Shown here: in pieces, positions 457 to 28,115 of the stretch | Layout: every line of letters begins with the position of its first letter | Numbering within the stretch: the first letter of the stretch is position 1 | Assembly (NCBI RefSeq): GCF_000003605.2 | Contig: NW_003133346.1 | Span: 758,110 to 786,224, forward strand | Length of the DNA: 28,115 nucleotides | Reading direction: 5' to 3' | DNA from: Saccoglossus kowalevskii | Lineage: Eukaryota > Hemichordata > Enteropneusta > Harrimaniidae | Made by a program: the position numbers and the translations under genes | Notes under the pieces: model-generated | Seen by the model: only the letters and a program-made list of their open reading frames with translations | Told to the model about the DNA's origin: nothing | Databases searched by the model: none

Positions 457-3400
457 GTAAGTTTTGATATTATTTCAATAACCTTTCTCTACCAAGGGTG
501 GCTTATGAACTGGAAAATCAGATAAAGTTGGTTTCAATAAATACATTTACATTGTATCTGTAAAATAACATACAGATTTTGCATATTTTTTAATTCATGC
601 ACAGACTTGACTTTTTTAGTGAGCACCAAAAAGTGTTAATGAAAACCACTACCTCTCTATTGCCTTCCTACATTTGTAAGAAATATTTCCAAGATTATGA
701 ATGACAAAGGTGTTTCTACCGTCAAAATAGGTCTTTAATACTTTATAAATGTCATTTTTATTTCATTAGTTCTTCTCGTTCAAATACGGTATATGTTACA
801 ATTTCAAGCCAGTAACATTTTCAGCTGCACTATCCCTCATCTATTCAACCTTATTTATCCCTTTCCATGGTAATGTTTCAATGAAAAAAAAATGCACTTG
901 GTTTGTTACTGTTAATTGTTTTGATTACATGGGTGACAGTTTTTCAGTAAATTTTAGGAGTCTGGGAACAGAATTGTGCTGCAATGAATGATTTCCTTAG
1001 GTTTTTGAAGATGCAATATGGCTATATGGCATTATAACTGTTTTAATATTTATTAATACATTGTATTGTTATTTTATACTTTATACTGTAGACTGAAGCA
1101 GACTATGAATTATTATAAACTTCTTGCATTTGCAACTCAGATGAGTGCTACAGGTCATGATAAATCACAGTCACAGTGTCATAGTTTCAAATGTTAAACT
1201 ATGTATCCTGTTCTGTAAGCATCAGATTGCATGATTAATCTCGTCCCGTAATTGTTAGAATATGTCTACTCTTGATTCGCAGGCTGATGTTATTGCTGCT
1301 GAACTACAGAGCTCGATGGAATATGCAACGGGTAAAAATAAGCAAAAGAGAAAGAAACCGCAATATGGCAGACCAGTCCCTGCCGTTGTATCGAACCACC
1401 AATCGTATCAACCAAACATGAGACAGGCCTCGCATACGAGACGTGAAGAGATGATGATTCCACCCCCTCCCAATGAGCCAGCTCCTAGTCCACCAGATGA
1501 GTCCGGTAACGTACGCAGTAAAGTATTAATGTACTCCCAGGCACAAGCCCAGGCACAGAAAGGTTAGCTTGATGAATATGTCGTTATTGAGATTGACAGA
1601 TTGATATGTGTATGTGTGTGTATAGTTTACATAATTTGAATGCTCAGTAGTGTCAGAACAAAGTTAAATTGATTAGTTTTTCCCCTCCTGCCTGACATGT
1701 TTTAATTTGTTACTCTATATCTGGAATAATTGCGCAATATCACTGCCCTTTTCCCCCTGCTCACGTTGAATGTGTGCCACAGAGTAGACATTCTGACTCC
1801 TTTAGATACCGGTGTTTGCTTTGCAGTCAGTTGTTGCTAACCTGCTAAATGATAAAAATGTGATTATCTAGGAATGAACTTGTCATGGTCAGATTGTGTC
1901 AGGGACATTTTCAGTAAAAACTGGCTAACACGAGAACTTTGTCACGTTTAATATTTAATTATTATATCTCAAATATTGAATTGTTTGACAGTTTTTTTTT
2001 TAGAGATTACAGCATGGCGAAGTTGAACCACTATTGGTTGATTTAATGACATACTTTAACAAAGATATATCACTGACACTAAAGCCTGCAAATGGTTAAA
2101 TGTTGCATTGTAGGGAAGTTTTCAAATTGATGATTCAATGACTTGGACAGATGATTTTAATGATAACTGTTCTATTCCTTAAAGGAGTACATCAGCACAA
2201 TTCAAATCGTTTTCTCTTTTCCCCATGTCAATTAAATCTTACAGCATGAAATTAATGCAATTTTTTGCTTATGTATGCTTCTATCAGGGATGCTTTTCTA
2301 ATAGAGTAATTACGATATATATGAATGTAGTATATTGGCTTCACTAAAAATGAAGTAGTTTGTTGTTTGACAGAAAAGCTGTGAATTGCTGGTACCAGCA
2401 AAAGTTTTTCTCGTTAATTTAACAAGGTTTTATTGAAAATTTGTAATTGATTGTCGCTCTGACTGTGGCTGAAAGTATGTTGGAGCCACCCTGAGTTTGT
2501 TTGTGGATTCATATTAAGCCCAGTCTCTTGACATTTCTCTTCTCTTGTTGCAGTTAATGGCAATTCTCAGGGGAATCCAATGCGTGCATCTGGTCTTGTA
2601 CGGCAAATGTCGGTGAGTCCAAGGGGTCCTCATGATGAAGACTCTGTTGAGATGTTAGCAATGAGAACGGAACGTGATGTGGTAAGTTGTCGCTTGACTT
2701 GTACCAGAATAGCATTTATCACAACTCAAAAAAAAAAAAAGTATTATTCTTACCTTAGAGCGTAACTGATAACTTTATTACTGTTTCTTTCCCTCCAGGA
2801 GATACTGAACCATTGCTTTAGTGACGTTGAGGCCTTCGTAGCTAAACTCCAGAAAGCTGCTGATGCTTTTAATGAGCTATCAAAGCGGCGAAAGACTCGA
2901 AAGAACAAGATTAAACAACCTGGTGATGGTGTATTACAAGCGAGATCCCGACCTCCTTCAGAGGATGAATATGTTGACGTGTTCCAAAAAATTAAATATG
3001 CATTCAATTTACTGGTAAGTGACGCTTTATTATTTATTTTGTTTTTGTAGGGATTGAAAAATGAAATTGAATAACATGCATGTACTTGTAGATCAACTCT
3101 TGTCATAATCGCAAAAGATGTTAAAGATTATATAATTACTAGAACGTGTCTAAACCAAACTCCAAATGAAATATTAAAATTGTTTGTTTTTCGATTTATG
3201 AAGGTCTGTTATTTGTGTTCATGTCTGTGTATTTGGAAAACGTTTTTAGACAGGTATTTGGTTCAGTCAGGATTTCCTTTAAATAAGTTTACTGTTGATC
3301 CAAAAAGGCAGTGGTCAGAGAAAATAACTTTGTAGTGAATGACTAAATGATCAGGTGGCGCCTGTTGATGATCATTTGAGACAAGACAGTTTTATGAGAC

Positions 3401-6400
3401 AACAAGCATTATTTTTTACGTTTGTTTTTATTGTGAAACATCATAAAGAAAAGGAGGCAGTATCATCTGTATTTGTAGCTGTGGTTTGAAAAACAGTTCT
3501 ACCTGCTGTACTTGGTTTACAACAATTCATTAAGTTACCTCCAGTATACCACTCTTCTGTCACATGTACTTGCATGTCAGTAGCACTCAAATCTGATGGA
3601 ATGTAATTGATTTTATCTTGTGACTTGCCATTCAAATGTCATTTTATGTGGCATATCTCATACCAACCAAAATCATTGTAGCGTTCCCAAGTCTTTTGTC
3701 ATCTCTGTGTTTAATGATGTGTGCCACATTCTATCCAAAGTTGAGTTAGGGGGTCATTGAAATATTTAATTGAACTAACCCCACTTAATATTACTAATAA
3801 TAATTTTGATAGTTGCATGGCATCTTTTTCTGTTATTAAAATAAAAAGAGAAATAAAGTAATAGCTGTATCTCTCTTCAATTCCTGCATTGGTAGGAAAG
3901 TAATTTATTCCGAACCTTATTGAATAGCGTGTACATTTGATAGTTAGGCATTCAGCATAGCTCAACCAGTGAACACATATCCAGTTTCACTGGGATAGTG
4001 CAAAAAGGTTGTTTTATAATGTGTCACTGGACATTTGCTATTTCTTATCTCTAGATAATCAACCTACATTTATGACCTATAGCCCCGAATTTTGATTGGA
4101 GGCTGATTTATAACCTGAATTTTGATTGGAGGCTGATTTATAACATGAATTTTGATTGGAGGCTGATTTATAACCTGAATTTTGATTGGAGGCTGATTTA
4201 TAACATGAATTTTGATTGGAGGGCAATTTATAGCCCAGCTTGTTACTGATGCTCAATATTTTATACCAATAATTGGCTACTGGTTTGATAATAATATATA
4301 GGGTACTATATTACAGGCTGTGCACAATTAAACAGCACCTAGATAGCTGCCTATGTACATATAAACAGCACCTAGGCAGCTTGCTATGCATTCGTAGCCA
4401 TTACCTAGACAGCTAGAAGGTTAATTCTAGTTTGAATTCATATATAGCTAGCATACTAAGTTTAGGTCATGTGACCAAGCTATGTTCATTTGCTGCATTA
4501 AGTGTTCATTTATACAAATTAAAAACAATGACCACTATTTGAAAAAAGAGACTGCTTAAAAAAAAATTCTCTATTCAAAGCATATCTCAATATAAGTTGA
4601 TATATAGTAGATAGTATTTGGTAATCGTTGTCCTAAGTAACTATTAAAAATAGTTAGACGTTTCAAGCAATGGTTCTTTTTCGATAGCATAGAAGTAAAT
4701 GATTGAAAAATATTTAACTCTTATCTGGTCAAGTCAATAGAAAAGTACATACAACTTGAAGGTTAAGGGTTAAATAACACATTTTATCCAGTTCTACAGG
4801 TAGTCGTTCTTGGGGACAACCTGTAACTCTGTAATTAAGATACTTTTCATTTTGAGTCTGGATTATGAAAATAATAACTTGTTGAATGCCGTCTTAAAAT
4901 TAGCATTCTCCTCAACGTTTTACTTTAGATCTAGGTTAGATATTCATCGATTTCAAATAAATAGCATCCTTCAACTGATTTCTTTGTTTTGTTACAGGCC
5001 AAGCTGAAAGCACACATCCATGATCCAAACTCTCCAGAGCTGGTACACTTTATGTTTACTCCATTGGAACTAATTGTACAGAGTTGTAATGGACCAGAGT
5101 TAGCCAGAAGTGTCCTTTCACCTTTACTTACAGTTCAGGCAGTGGAATTGTTACGAAATTGCCTCACATCCAGAGAAGGTGAACTGTGGGTATCGCTTGG
5201 AACTGCATGGACGACTCCAAAGTAAGTCAAGGTCATGATATTAAGGGCTAACACTTTTCAAGTTGATTTTGTTTAGGGGTAATGTGAGTTTTTCACTCTG
5301 CAGGAATTATAGATCCTCACCTTCCTGTATGCAGATTATTTTTTCCAGCTTTGCAGATTTATTTTTCCTGATTTTACCTTAGTTACCCCCTCCCCGTGGT
5401 AGTAATGGTGCAGCCCTAATGTGTGTTAGTTCATGTACTTTATTTTGAATAATTCATAGTGAATTTATGACATCTGTACCTCATCATACACTTTATCTGA
5501 TGTCCCACTATAACTTCACCTTTGAAAGTAGGTCATTACCTTAATTTATTATTTTGTTCACAGAGCCGCCTGGCCAAAAGATCATTATGTTGCACAATAT
5601 GTACCAAAATTTCGAGATGGCTGGGAGCCCCCAGTGGTGCATAGTTCACATATAGACTCGGCTCGTGAAGAGATATCTGCTGCTGTAGCTGCCAATGCTG
5701 CCGCCATTGCTAGAGCCGAGGAAGTCAGGAGAGCACAAAAGGAGGTTGGTGTGTTACATTTTTCTATGACATGCTTATTCACATATGCCATTCACAAGGC
5801 TCTACAACTAGACTGATGTACATAACTAACACATGTGAACAGCAGCTGAGACTATTGAACTTTTAGTAAATTATGAAATATTCACCAAATTTAGGGATAC
5901 TGAATATTATCATTTTAATATGGAATATTGTTTATATATAAAAACTGATGTATCTGTACTATTCCTGAGAAGAAAGTATAACATGTGAAATACATAATTA
6001 TTAGAAGAAATATTATGCTGGTTGCCATTTAATTTGTTGTGAATATTCTCTACACGACTTAGTAGAGTTCATTGTTTTTTTGTCAAAACTACTGGATTTG
6101 ATGGATGTAATACATCACAAATATTATGGTGGCCATTGCAGCCTCCTCATGAGGGTGACACATCAGGGAAGATTAGCAGAAAATATTCTAAACTTTGACT
6201 AGCATATGATGCTTATTGAATGTCTGTTCTTGACTGTAGGGTGAGGAGCATGTGTTCCAGTTTCCTCCTCCAAGTGGAGCTAATTACAGTGAAACTTACT
6301 ATGCACGTCACATTGGTAATGGTAGGACACGTAGTAATCAATCGTCAAGTCCAACCCCGGGACCACATTCAGCTGAACCAGCAAGTGTTGCTGCTTTCAA

Positions 6401-9400
6401 AGCAAATGTGGCTAAACATGTTGACAGGTATGTTACAATTTTAAATACCTTATGACATCAATTCATATTGTAATCAGGATTTCTTGTGTATGATTCAATC
6501 TCATTGTGCCCAATAGCATCATCAGTCTCGTTTCAAAACAAGTCTACTTGTCTTATTTTGAAAGTTTGGAATGTGTGTGGAATGTATTTGAAAGTGCTGA
6601 CCCATGCAAATTGTCAGACTAGCTACTAAGTGAGAAAGTGTTTGATTGTGGTGCCATAGCTTAGGAATTGATATTTATTTTTCAAAATGTTAGAATTAAC
6701 CAAGAATTTCATACAGAAACTTGTAATTATAAGAAGGAAATTAAAGGTAATATTACTCTGTTTTGAAATCTACAGGAACAAAGAAGCCCATGCACGAGTC
6801 AAACAACAAACTGAAATCGACAATGGTCGCCTTCAGTATCATCAACACCAACCTGTGCTGCCACCATCATCGCAATATCAACAGCACAGTCCCCCAACAC
6901 AGTCTCCGAGGGAAGGGAGAGTAGTCGATGCCAAATATGACTTTGTTGCTCGGAATCAGAAAGAGCTGACAATCATGGCGGGTGAAGTTTTGGAGGTAAG
7001 AATATCATGGCATGTAAATGTGTATTTTCTTAGTATGTGTGAGTCAGTAGGTAGTAGTAATCAAGTGCTGTTGTGCTTCTACATGTCTGACAAATGCTGA
7101 ATGATTTTGATATGTTATCTCTCCTAAACTATTACTACAAAGAGGGAAAAGATGTACATGATAAGGTTACCACGAGAATACCACAAAGTATGCACTCAGG
7201 CAGTACAGGATCACATCAACCTTTGTACTTTTGTTCGGCTGATATGCATACTTTGTAGGATTGTGGTTACTTCAATGATTTCTTGATTCACACTGTTTTT
7301 TTTTGCTGTAGGTCGTTGATGATAGTCGCATGTGGTGGTGTGTGCGCAATTCATCGGGACAGACTGGTTTTGTGCCATCTACCATATTGGACCCAACACA
7401 TGCCAACACTGCAGCAAGTAGTAGGATTCCCTCGCCACCACCACAGTCTCCACCACCACCGCCATTAACGATGGCTACTGGCAACAACCAGGAACCCGTC
7501 TATCACCATCATCTACAACAAAGAGCAATCAATCAGGTATTTATTGATTTCTAGCGTACTTCACATTTTTATTTACTTTTTACTTGAACAATCAAATAAG
7601 TAAACAAAAACAGTATGTGACAGCTATATTTACAACTCGCTATGGCATCAAAATAATTTAGCTTTTGTTTTGGAAATAAAACTTACTTTGAGATTCCTGA
7701 CAAGTCAATGGAAAGTCTCAGCTTAGTTACCAGTACACAGTTGCGTTGCACGCATCTCTAGTCTGTATGTTTCAAGCAGTTATGTTAGCTCTGTTTTTAC
7801 TAAGGTTTAACAATCATAGCAAAAGTTGTGGAAGAAAAGGCACGTCTGTCTGCGTGAGTCTGCATCGGTTTTGTTTTTGTAAAATCTGTATTAGAAGCTG
7901 CGGCTTCAATTAAAATGGTACAATGCAACAGATGGATGCGGCTTCTATTAGAGCACCTACACATATGAGAAATGATGAATTTTTTATTCTCAGCTATTCA
8001 AAAAGAATGGGTGCAACTTCTATTAGGGGTGCGGCTTCTAATACAGATTTTACGGTAGTAATGAGTCAGTGATTGATCAGATCTGAAGGAGGCACCTCAA
8101 GCTTGTGAACAATAACTCACTGATAATATGTGTAAATATTATATATTTTCTTGCAGACCACAGTTACTCAGAACAGAGACTCGATGTATTCCAGTATGAT
8201 TCCAAAACAGCCGCCACCCCAGCAGCAGCAACAGTTACCACAGCAGCATCCTGCTCCACCACCTCCTCCTCCACCATTGTCTGTGCCTCCAGTACCACCA
8301 CCAACATCACACTATGCCCAGTCTAAAAAGACTAGCAGGCAGTCTTCAATCAAAAGAGGTCAGTCAGTCTCCAACAATATTGACAATTAGTTATGAAAAT
8401 ACTGATATTATTCAAATTTAGAAATGTTGCTACATTAAGTTCATCTATCTCTGAGAATTAAACTTGTCTTATTTCTTTTTATTTCAGACCAAGACAATGC
8501 GAATGATTTGAAAAATCAACTCAGGAACAGGCAAGCCTTGAGGAAGACAGACATGGAAATTGAAAGAGGTAAATGATTCAGAAATAAATGAGTTGAAAAG
8601 CACCCTCTATAGATTTTTTGGTGAGAGAGGACATTCATCTGAATTGTATAGTATTATGTGACATAAAGTCCACAATTTTCATATTTTTTCTTTATTTTTT
8701 AAATTTTCAGCTAAAACGACAAATGATTTGCATGAAGAACTTAAGAGACGTGTGAATCAAGGCCCAAAGAGGAATTTCCAAGCCAGACAACGAGCTCCAC
8801 CTGTGAATATTAATCCTGATTCAAACCCGGATGAGGTCACTAACTGGTTATTGACTAAAGGATTCAGCAAACTGTAAGTTTTTATACAACATTACATAAT
8901 AACTGACCTCATTTAAGACCCATGTGCTTTTCTTTTTTGTGTGCAGTTTGTATATACACACATGTGACTCTCTTATTTTTTTTGAAAGGACGGTGGATAG
9001 TCTTGGTGTACTCACAGGTGCACAACTGTTTAGCCTTACTAAAGAGGAATTAAAACAAGTGTGTTATGAGGATGGATCACGAGTGTACAGTCAACTGATG
9101 GTCCAGAAATCCAGGCTAGAGGTCAGTTTACATCTTTTGTTTATTTTCTCAAGTCTTTCTGCTATTTTACTTGATTTTAACAGGTGGCGTGGTAATTAAT
9201 GTGGTATACTAACTTCATGGGCACTTCATAGTCTTATCCATTCTTAATCTTGATATAATACATATTCTTAAATAGAGACAACACCCCCTACCTCCACCTC
9301 CACCCCATAGAACACGTATTTGTAAGTTTGTTATTACTAATTTTGTACTTGTGTGTAGGATTCGTTGAATGGTTCGGCTGAACTTCAGGCAATTATGCAA

Positions 9401-18325: not shown

Positions 18326-23699
<5,374 letters not shown>

Positions 23700-24830
23700 C
23701 TACAGAGAAATAAACAAGAAAATAATTACTTTGACAATTTATTTTAATTACTTCAAAGGATAAAAAATAATAAGTATGAAATACAAGAAAAGCTAGCTTG
23801 ACTATTCATTTGTAATTTGCCTGTATGTGGTCTGTTAATAATTGAATTCAGTTTGTCCATCTGTTCTTGACAAACAGTTAAGTACATTACAGAGTATTGC
23901 AGCATATATGGTTAATTTTGAGCTGCATTTATAACAGCTTTTGACAAATTTTCCATAAAAACCATAGAATTTTGTAACAGTTAACATTTCTCTGGGACCA
24001 TACATATACCCGGTACAAGACAACTTGTCAGCGACTCTAACAAAATTTTGCCTTTATGATACCATAAAAATCATCAAAAATGGCAAAAATTTCTAGCAGC
24101 AAAAATTAAGTGGTTGGCAGTAGTTTTCCTATAGAGGAATCTTTAAAGCAATTGGGATCTAATCATAATCACCTAATAATAGGGTCCTACTTTCAGTGCT
24201 TAATGTATGACAAATTATACAGAGAATATTAATATTACCAGATTCGGCTGATACCTTGCCCTGGAAAATTTGATTTTTTTTAGAAAAATGTGTGTGGACC
24301 AAAAGATCGCCCGGGCGATGTTTTGGCAGATTTTACGAAGTCCATATTGTCTGGAAAAATAACCCTGCGTTGATAAAAATAGTCTCAGAAAATATTTAGA
24401 AAAAATAATGTTTCGCGTTGACCAAATATAATCATGCAAAGTATAAATTCAAAGTGTTTTAATTAAGAGCAAATGTCTGTAAGAATCAAACAATGGTGGC
24501 AGGGGTCAAAAAATAGATTTGGCTCATATTTTGCACAGTGATAGTACTTAAATTGGTCCACAACCCCTCAAAATAGCTTTCTTTTAGATCAAAACTCCTT
24601 GTTGCCATGGTAACTGGCAAACAAAGTTTTCTGGCCATTTTCCCCAATTTTCGCATGTCAAAAACACGGAAATCAGCATATTTTACGGCACTGTCTCGGC
24701 AACAACTTCAAACCTACCATAAAAACAAAACAAGATCTGAATAGACCAACATTTTGGCTTTTTCAAAATTGTTGTGCAATTTCCAAAGACAAACATTTTA
24801 GTTCTTGGGCAGCCTGAAAACAATTAGATA
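23700..24830. other. IDH1 intron 5' flank of the large transposon
   Basis: Part of the large intron upstream of the first visible IDH1 exon. Up to about 24480 nothing was recognised. From about 24485 (GGTGGCAGGGGTCAAAAAAT) to 24830 the sequence has repeat character and may be the outer end of the large element; it includes the palindrome GTTGCCATGGTAAC at 24601-24614. The matching right outer end would lie beyond the window. Confidence 0.5.
24601..24614. promoter_or_regulatory. Palindromic X-box (RFX-type) motif
   Basis: GTTGCCATGGTAAC is a perfect 14-bp palindrome fitting the RFX X-box consensus (two GTTRCC half-sites spaced by two bases). It lies in an intron, at or near the outer edge of a transposon, so a regulatory role for IDH1 is only a possibility. 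Confidence 0.3.
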
Positions 24831-25710
24831 TTTGGCCCAAATTTGTAACACTATAAGTGCCGCTCTGGTATTTTTTTTGGCTTGAAACTTGTACCATATA
24901 TAGATAATTGGAACATCTATCAAAAGCATTTTTGCAAAATTTGGTACCTTGTTTGGTTGTCACGTGACTGTCCCTTAAATTAGGCCACTTTTTATGTGTT
25001 GCGAAAATTTTGAACTTTAGCCATGTTCAAAGTACGCTACATGACGAAGTAAAATATATTTCTAATTCAACTTATTATCAAAGGTGAATCTATGTATTGT
25101 CTCTATCAAATAAATGCTTGTAGAGTTTCGAGTCATGACATTCAGTCACGTGGTTGTCCCTGAAAGTAGGCCATTTTTTGAATTTGACAAGAATTGTGAA
25201 TTTTAGCTTTGTTAGCGTACACTCCGTGACGAAGTGAACAATAATTCTAATTCAACTTTTGGTCAAATGTACATCTATCTATTGTCTATCAAATGAATGC
25301 TTGTAGAGTTTCGGGTCATGACGTTCAGTCACGTGGTTGTCCCTGAAAGTAGGCCACTTTTTGCATTGTGAATTTTCAAAGTATGCTACGTGAAGAAATG
25401 AAGAAGAATTCTGATTCAACTTCTGATCAAATGTACATCTTTGTATTTTTTACTGAATAAATGCTTGTAGAGCTTCGGGTCATGACATTTAATCACATGG
25501 TTGTCCCTGAAAGCAGGTCACTTTTTGTGCTCAACGAAAATTGTGAATTTTAGCTATGTTCAAAGTATGCTACTGTACCTGACAAATCAGGACTAACTCA
25601 ACTTCTTCTTAAGCCAGTCATCTATGTGTTGCCTATCAAGTAAATGCTCGTAGAGTTTTAGGGAGTGACGTTTAGTCCCGGAAGGTTTCTGAACATATGC
25701 CATATTTAGA
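24831..25710. repeat. Left inverted arm: tandem units of about 183 bp
   Basis: Equivalent points in each unit (the start of GTCACGTG-x-x-TGTCCCT) fall at about 24958, 25144, 25327, 25491 and 25674, so spacings are 186, 183, 164 and 183; the last copy is truncated by about 25710. Each unit carries GTGGTTGTCCCTGAAAGTAG, a GGCCACTTTTTG-like stretch, AATTCTAATTCAACTT and AAATGCTTGTAGAGTTTCGG. Confidence 0.9.
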
Positions 25711-26022
25711 AATTGTGTATCACCTGAATGTTAGGAACTTTTGTTCCTGTGTTAGTGTTCTTTTTGATATGCATTATAGAACATAGCTGAATTTAAAACA
25801 ATATCTTAGTTTCTTTATTACAAATTGATATTTACACGGCGCTTAACTAAACTTCAAGTTAACACTGTAAGTGCATTATCAGTCATTGTAGTACTAACAT
25901 AATATACATTGGACATTGACAATGTTAAAAGAAACAAACTGTTCAAGATGCATCTTCTCCAAAGTAACGGAACATCCTAACAGCATTTATCTAACTAAGC
26001 CTACATAAGAACACACAAACCT

Positions 26023-27535
26023 CTACGTCTTAGTACACTCTAGTTTTACACAAACCAGGCAGAAACTCGAGTACTCTTGAAGTTTTGCAACAAATGCCGA
26101 CTTGCGCCGACGGTCAGTGATGGAGGATACGTCGACATCAAAGTGCTCGCAAATGGACCTTAATAGTACTATGCCAATCTCATACAGGCCTCCCCTCTTT
26201 GCCAAGTCACAAAGGTTGAATGTATCGTACAGGACAGGGTGACATAGTTCGGCGTTGGTGATGATTTCCTCCTGTATGCGACTGTTAGAGGATTCGATTA
26301 CAGCAGGGTCCTGTTGCTCCTCCTCGTCGTCGTCGTCGTCGTCTTCTGAAGCTTTACGGCATTTAGCTGCCAGTCGGGAGAAATAGCTAGAGACTTGCTG
26401 GCCAGTCAAAAAGTCCTGCACCTGGAATAGCCATTGGCCTTGTGCATCACACGCATGCCTCATCTTTTTGGACACAGTAGCTTGTCCAAGCCGAAACCGC
26501 TTATCAAGGTCCTTTTTTTGCTTGTGGCTAAACCTGACAGTCTTCTTCGGACTGCGCAGTGCCCATCCTTGCCGTGGCAAAGGTGTTGTTCTTCTGACAG
26601 GCCCTGTGCAAGCTTTTCTGCGTACTTCAACTTTGTCTTGTCCAGCAAAGTCTCTCTTCCAAGCCGACGTTTGTGCTTTCCGACAGCTACATGAGCCTCC
26701 AGACCTTTGCATGTTTGATAAATCTTGACGCAGCTCTCTTCTGGACAAGGGAAAAGGCTACCACTGAGTGGGTTGCACAGTCTCATGACGTGCCGCATCT
26801 TCATCAGAATCTGATTTCTTGTTAAGCTTGCACCTTCATCTGCCTTGACCTGATGGGTCGAAATGCAGAACCAGGATTTGACGGCTGACTGACAATCTTC
26901 AGCAGCGGTGGTTCTATGGCAGGCAATCGCAGCCAAGGGACAATATTCCCTTCCCCGATGTTGTATGCTCGCCAGACACGTAGACCTGCATCACTAAACT
27001 CAAAGAGTTTGGTGATTCCATCCAGTTTCATGGATGTCGATGCAACATCTGCAACCACTTCACACAGAAAGACTTTACTCCCGGGATTCTACCACAAGAC
27101 TCAATGGCAATCATAAACTCCTCGGCCGTCTCAACATTGTGGCCCTCATTGATCCAGGTCTTATGTGGGACTTCACTGTTGTGGCCTGTCTGTCACATGA
27201 CCCTTTCCCCCCTTGTGGGTCGCAATAGTCCAGCCGTCTGATGGTGACTCGTGCTGTTTCGTTGATATGCCTAGCTGCTTGAAGTATGAGTGTGTTGTGA
27301 TAACACCCAGCATAGTCACTTCGAAGGTATAAGGACTTGGATAGATCCTTTGCTGGTATGCTACCGTGATGTGCCATGGTATGCCCCGCTTTCTAAACCA
27401 GTCTGTTCGGCTCTCCCTGTACCTCCTTGGCAGGAACTTCATGGCCCAGTCCATTACCAGAAGCACACTTGTATTATCCAGGTTATTCAGAAGTACATGC
27501 CAGGCATCATTTTGATTACACTTTGTCCCGTAGAG
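26023..27535 (-). pseudogene. Broken DDE-transposase-like gene with C2H2 finger (unnamed invertebrate family)
   Basis: Protein similarity continues on the minus strand but jumps frame at least four times, so this copy is dead. In order: VMDWAMKFLPRRYRESRTDW (about 27465-27405); LYLRSDYAGCYHN and CDPQGGKGSCDRQ (about 27340-27185); WINEGHNVETAEEF (about 27155-27110, another frame); KLDGITKLFEFSDAGLRVWR (about 27030-26965); a C2H2 finger with Cys-x4-Cys-x12-His-x5-His (about 26755-26685); VRFSHKQKKDLDKRF and FQVQDFLTGQQVSSYFSRLA (about 26555-26360); an acidic run of six Asp; and HPVLYDTFNLCDLAKRGGLY to a stop at 26023. The Asp residues in MDW and RSDYAG look like DDE catalytic positions; a segment between them and the N-terminus seem missing. 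I know the family only as unnamed repeat-associated proteins; the transposase role is inferred from position between inverted arms. Confidence 0.75.
26324..26343. repeat. CGT trinucleotide run
   Basis: TCGTCGTCGTCGTCGTCGTC encodes the Asp run of the transposase-like pseudogene on the minus strand. Confidence 0.9.
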
Positions 27536-28115
27536 TACTTTGAAGATGGCTAAAATTTCATTTTTTTGGCAAATGCAAAAAAAGTGGCCCACTTTCATGG
27601 ACAGCCACGTGACTAAACATTAGACCCAAAATTCCACAAGCATTCATTTGATAGACAATACATAGACCTACATTTGACCAGAAGTTGAGTTAACGTTCTA
27701 ATTCACTTTGTCCAGTATAGTACTTTGAACATGGCTAAAATTCCAAAATTCTGCCTAGTGCAAAAAATGGCCTACTTTCAGGGACAACCACGCGACTAAA
27801 CATTATGACCCGAAACTCTACAAGCAATTATTTGATAAGTAATTCATAGATCTACATTTGAAAAGAAGTTGAGTTAGAATTCTATTTTACTTTGTCATGT
27901 AGAGTCCTTTGAAGATGGCTTACATCCACAATTTTGGTCAAATGCAAAAAATGACCTACTTCTTGGGACGACCACGTATGAACCAAACAAGTTACCAAAT
28001 TTTGGAAGATATTATTTGAAAGATATTTTAATTATCTATGTATGGTAAAAATTTCAAGTAAAAAAAAATACCGGAGCGGCACTTATAGCATTACAAAGTT
28101 GGGCAAAAAATTACA
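27530..28115. repeat. Right inverted arm: the same tandem units in opposite orientation
   Basis: Reverse-complement copies of the left-arm unit. Equivalent points (CCACGTGACT and variants) start at about 27605, 27788 and 27972, spacings 183 and 184. The inner end merges near 27530 with the transposase-like ORF. The arm continues to the window edge. Confidence 0.9.

Follow-up and report, generated by a model that had tools for sequence, protein, structure and literature searches.

Inverted arms of tandem ~183-bp units in a dispersed, probably TTAA-targeting DNA-transposon family of Saccoglossus kowalevskii

Near the right end of a 28,115-nt stretch of the Saccoglossus kowalevskii genome (the window, bases 758110-786224 of contig C2503; the assembly comprises 572 Mb in 4830 contigs), tandem copies of a ~183-bp unit stand on both sides of a broken coding remnant, in opposite orientations. 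Is this arrangement a transposable element with inverted arms built from tandem units, or satellite DNA that happens to flank a gene remnant, and what would the units be for? Here, we show that a dispersed DNA-transposon family has one of its copies in the window, inside an NADP-isocitrate dehydrogenase intron, and we argue that this copy is very probably a relic of a non-autonomous, TTAA-targeting family with foldback-like arms.

Results

Borders and host site of the window copy

The original prediction had placed the element at 24831..28115. The element is real but its left start was set too far in: the outer end lies 364 bp further out, at 24467, directly after a TTAA at 24463-24466. In most copies homology starts at window 24459-24468; the differing starts are those of L025 (24521), L029 (24648) and L022 (24426), the last being a chance extension into AT-rich flank. 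The right outer end lies beyond the window, where a 1447-N assembly gap (L021 4726-6172) starts directly past base 28115. The features of the window copy are as follows.

24463..24466, no strand: TTAA next to the left border, presumably the target-site duplication; TTAA at 14/20 termini in L021-L037 and 3/3 in L065 and L066
24467..24958, plus: left arm, outer stretch without tandem units (with respect to the coding remnant, this is the 3' arm); its terminal sequence is GAGCAAATGTCTGTAAG, with TTAA immediately before it
24959..25144, plus: left-arm unit 1, outermost class
25145..25327, plus: left-arm unit 2, middle class
25328..25490, plus: left-arm unit 3, short class, with an internal deletion
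25493..25674, plus: left-arm unit 4, innermost class
26026..27517, minus: broken transposase-like coding remnant, without an accepted Pfam match
27513..27613, minus: right-arm inner partial unit
27623..27796, minus: right-arm unit 2
27798..27977, minus: right-arm unit 1, outermost
27978..28115, minus: outer right arm, part only, the remainder inside the assembly gap

The host gene lies on the minus strand, the same strand as the coding remnant. Its exon at 23448-23699 (minus) matches solved cytosolic NADP-isocitrate dehydrogenases (best E 5.9e-24) and its exon at 22519-22764 (minus) has an Iso_dh match, while the exon before these, identified by visual inspection of its sequence, is found past the assembly gap (L021 9350-9499, minus); the element sits in the intron between this exon and 23448-23699. 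Elsewhere in the window, possible exons at 6687-7100 and 1262-1567 (both plus), the former with a partial SH3 match under the Pfam cut-off (20.8 vs 22.9 bits), belong to what we take to be an EPS8-like gene, and a minisatellite with a 30-bp unit occupies 4087-4222 (4.5 copies, 97% matches).

A dispersed family with TTAA at its termini

When 24831-28115 was used as query against its own genome, 84 matches on 17 contigs were obtained, which places the unit and arm pattern beyond chance. Seventeen places were fetched with their flanks (L021-L037) and the outer arm alone as query added two more (L065 and L066), so that the family is present at at least 19 places; all genome match counts given here are lower bounds. 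At least one recognisable terminus is present at 18 of the 19 places, L029 being without any. A fuzzy terminus search yielded 23 termini, 17 of which adjoin an exact TTAA (14/20 in L021-L037, 3/3 in L065 and L066) and six of which do not, against a background TTAA frequency of 0.7% among the tetramers of the fetched DNA. Two purines (5'-RR) open 22 of the 23. Both termini are present at five places, and in four of these, L022, L024, L032 and L065, TTAA stands on both sides; the fifth, L028, has TTAA on one side and TTAC on the other. The two-ended copies measure 3517 bp (L022), 3747 bp (L024), 4414 bp (L028) and 2705 bp (L032), and L065 (2429-2732; C2617, ~81.9 kb) is a derivative of ~304 bp with zero 183-bp units, which suggests that the units are perhaps not needed for movement.

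The copies also differ in what they have lost. L023 is without a right-type arm, and the arm of L037 stops before the units with no assembly gap there. In L026, L027, L029 and L030 the match to the left part ends at window 26014 in all four, and these copies likely form a subfamily with a common deletion. The right flank of L024 (5398-5480; C446, ~407.9 kb) starts with a short high-copy repeat of ~80 bp, for which 40 of 1152 first-look candidates were scored. An empty-site test, carried out for L024 alone among the two-ended copies, did not recover an empty site beside it: the sequences upstream of six repeat copies are unlike the left flank of L024, and a seventh (L068) gave a match only at a more internal position.

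Arms in register, with a variable number of units

Each arm consists of an outer non-repeated part of ~490 bp followed by units of ~183 bp, four on the left and ~2.6 on the right in the window, in opposite orientation. The two arms align in register over ~540 bp (24828-25368 vs 28111-27571) at 80% identity, bearing out the proposed inverted arms of tandem ~183-bp units; the foldback-like architecture, in which long inverted terminal repeats contain tandem units, is present here. The left units start at 24959, 25145, 25328 and 25493, with spacings of 186, 183 and 165 bp, and the last spacing (164 bp by another measurement) is small because the third left unit is shortened. Four full left units plus a partial one had been predicted; nhmmer finds the four, the third of them shortened, but does not detect the partial fifth as a unit of its own.

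L021, L022, L024, L026, L028, L029 and L031 all have an array in each arm, and the number of units differs between arms as well as between copies, from six and five in L028 to three and ~2.6 in L022. The outer 480 bp of the arms have a left and a right type: between copies, left-type arms are 88.8% identical (45 pairs) and right-type arms 88.7% (6 pairs), in comparison with 83.3% for left vs right in different copies (37 pairs). Within a copy, the two outer arms are 84.0% identical in L022 and 83.9% in L032, and 93.7% in L028. Compared in 100-bp blocks, the arms of L028 are 90-98% identical in the first five and 72-88% in the next seven, and one outer arm may have been copied onto the other; this arm-to-arm contrast is weaker in L022 and L032 (80-92% across the first five blocks). 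L024, where one outer arm is for the most part missing, is outside the block comparison.

Units belong to the element and are not a satellite

That a satellite with a 183-bp unit flanks a gene remnant by accident would fit the head-to-tail order of the units, yet the genome speaks strongly against it. One unit as query gave 74 matches on 14 contigs, and all 74 lie inside known element places; at the sensitivity of this search, in which counts are lower bounds, free satellite arrays of the unit were not found. Moreover, the arms recur around the remnant in the same order, and the units retain their positional identity from copy to copy (below). We therefore reject the satellite reading at that sensitivity and regard it as exceedingly improbable, and the statement that this is not satellite DNA, for which the one-unit search had been proposed, holds.

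The predicted co-occurrence of the open reading frame with the arms is likewise seen. The C-terminal protein stretch has 18 matches at nine places in the genome, eight of which have at least one arm. Both arms with units surround the remnant in L021, L022, L024, L028 and L031; L032 has one arm with units and the outer part only of the other; L023 has a left-type arm only; and L025 has a right-type arm only, with an assembly gap on its other side. The ninth place, L056 (C1605), is a distant relative with 29% identity in the C-terminal stretch and without these arms.

Units keep their position across copies

When 73 units of 14 loci, each spanning at least 120 model positions (shorter ones were dropped), are placed in a tree, they group across copies by arm and position, 30 of the 70 inner forks being under the drawing threshold. 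The left classes are the outermost (12 units, support 100/100), middle (19, 99/97), short (9, 100/99) and innermost (11, 100/100), and the right units group together (21, 97/87) and contain an outermost class (6, 100/99); the right unit L026_F4 joins none of these groups. Two units of L034, whose arm was unlabelled beforehand, fall into the short-left and innermost-left groups. Mean identity is 0.84-0.93 inside groups and 0.68-0.83 between groups.

Because the positional classes are common to the copies, the array must have been already differentiated in the family ancestor and inherited as a block. Each copy has one outermost and one innermost left unit, and any surplus units stand between them; L024 duplicates a block that includes the short unit. 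As read from these sequences, the array came from a master copy and its changes in number are local, mostly affecting units in the middle of an arm. The differing unit numbers had been put down to unequal exchange or gap repair, which is half borne out: such changes are indeed seen, mostly in the middle of one arm, but the separate identities that the arms keep across copies speak against regular copying from arm to arm, with L028, whose outer arms are unusually similar, as the one exception. The unit resembles neither the outer arm nor the inner spacer above the level of shuffles, and conservation clusters weakly along its length (an equally high value arose in 218 of 5000 shuffles).

A broken transposase-like remnant and its distant relative

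The coding remnant of the window, which lies on the minus strand, is spread over several frames between 27517 and 26026. Its pieces are 27350-27517 with the motif MDWAMKF, 27159-27347 with SDYAGCYH and DPQGGK, 26463-26990 with a possible C2H2 finger recognised by eye, and 26026-26757, the C-terminal part. Pfam returned an accepted match neither for these fragments nor for those of L056, and the transposase-like character of the remnant rests on its motifs and its position.

L056 (6998-8801, minus, on C1605) has an open core frame of 254 codons that ends early; arms or inverted ends were not detected around it, and it may be a relic or a host gene. Its frame matches the two window core fragments with identities of 57% (51 aa) and 45% (56 aa), and five acidic residues common to both, D113, D196, D225, D228 and D237 (L056 numbering), are candidates for a DDE/D triad. 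Approximately 45 residues of L056 between the core halves are absent from the window, and this gap is common to all three copies that span the region (window, L024 and L025), L024 and L025 aligning to the window without a large gap. Judging by similar proteins of corals, we assume that these residues were lost in the family and not gained in L056.

An intact coding copy was not encountered. The open reading frame lists of six other copies contain no long intact frame, L032 has stops in the matched stretch, and with the L056 core as query none of seven matches at six places in the genome is intact; nor was an autonomous partner found in the genome. The original prediction of a complete element family is therefore upheld for a DNA-transposon family with a transposase-like remnant, but not for completeness, as the coding copies examined are broken, the upstream coding part is missing and the core gap is present in 3/3 spanning copies. 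Lack of an intact coding copy together with the common core gap makes it probable that an autonomous partner mobilized the family.

Searches further afield gave little. One core fragment as query found no match among PDB sequences, and protein relatives were found neither in viral contigs (471 pattern matches for the C-terminal stretch, 6 for the core fragment) nor in prokaryote genomes (587 pattern matches); the translations of 12 viral contigs from the pattern scan were judged unrelated by eye and rejected. An AlphaFold2 model of the L056 core from a three-row alignment was too weak (mean pLDDT 51.8, pTM 0.40), and Foldseek on this model gave 802 matches at E up to 10 and zero at E <= 0.001. 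HCMV terminase nuclease or RuvC, which we take to be RNase-H-like, accounts for nine of its first 13 rows; this is suggestive only.

Discussion

Altogether, our results support a model whereby the window copy is a relic of a non-autonomous DNA-transposon family that inserted at TTAA and carried foldback-like arms, a reading that we consider very probable. In this model, a full-length element with an RNase-H-like transposase would once have existed, and a derivative lacking the upstream part of the gene and ~45 core residues would have arisen from it and been amplified in trans by a full-length relative that recognised its arms. The number of units would have drifted by unequal exchange or slippage, chiefly in the middle of an arm, and the copies would then have decayed to the ~89% mutual identity now seen in their outer arms.

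The superfamily can be named tentatively at best. Sola3, a group of the Sola superfamily, generates TTAA duplications, matching the TTAA borders seen here, and the core layout MDWAMKF, SDxAGCYH, DPQxGKxxCDR presumably recalls Sola-like proteins; against this, the literature, in the parts available to us, names Sola3 without stating its target-site duplication, and we lean somewhat away from this placement. A Kolobok origin is doubtful. The rule for that superfamily, as worded in the available portion of the source, is TTAA duplications with 5'-RR termini (PMC9587614), in agreement with 17/23 and 22/23 of the termini, respectively; however, a C/DxxH motif after the second acidic residue was seen neither in the L056 core (residues 197-254) nor in the second window fragment, although these frames end early, Pfam gave no match, and KolobokP is described in the same partial source with long terminal direct repeats (PMC9587614), unlike the inverted arms with tandem units here. 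For piggyBac, too, the fragments gave no Pfam match.

As to function, the units are likeliest to be transposase-binding sites, by analogy with Galileo, whose tandem TIR repeats were shown experimentally to bind transposase according to the part of that study at hand (PMC3688188); in our model they would most likely be extra sites of this kind. This role is weakened because L065 has TTAA on both sides without units, because conservation clusters weakly along the unit, and because the arm of L037 is unit-free without a gap. The units might instead be functionless, a neutral duplication in the master copy that was carried along. L065 and the weak clustering also favor this alternative, as does a similarity between unit and outer arm that is not above shuffles, and it is weighed down by the arrays in both arms of all seven copies listed above and by the Galileo binding data in the same excerpt (PMC3688188). 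We judge it a serious but minority possibility. A bolder proposal, which we consider unlikely, is that a TTAA-specific transposase family, unclassified and outside Pfam (core MDWAMKF ... SDxAGCYH ... DPQxGKxxCDR), independently evolved Galileo-like arms, in which the array would be copied as a block of position-locked units in transposition, only its middle would change, and the units would bind transposase in a different role at each end. The remnant points to a transposase-like family outside Pfam, and units that keep their positions while the middle of the array changes offer a direct test of array growth.

The architecture itself is already known, its nearest counterparts being the Galileo F group and Tetris, both with longer border duplications; what is seen here is its presence in a TTAA-inserting element. 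A literature search found no report of such a TTAA element within its reach, outside which lay most subscription papers and Repbase itself. In the Galileo F group of Drosophila mojavensis, the accessible text describes TIRs with internal tandem repeats of ~210 bp, compared with units of ~183 bp here, repeat numbers that differ between the two TIRs of one copy, as here, and long-TIR copies that are mostly non-autonomous, like the family described here (PMC3573991). Galileo has a P-superfamily transposase and 7-bp border sequences by the same partial account (PMC3573991), in contrast to the TTAA of the present family, and a P or THAP Pfam match was found in none of the fragments, from which the N-terminal part, the expected THAP site, is absent. 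Tetris of Drosophila virilis is comparable in design, with foldback-like TIRs containing internal tandem repeats of ~220 bp, but is described in the available extract as making 8-10-bp duplications, in place of TTAA, and as a suggested member of the Mutator superfamily (PMC4079207). Its units also form satellite-like arrays and have 37 bp in common with another part of the TIR, again as given in that extract (PMC4079207); neither is seen here. The tandem-unit inverted ends of Drosophila elements have been explained as arrays of extra transposase-binding sites, and their counterpart in a TTAA-type element suggests convergent evolution of this design.
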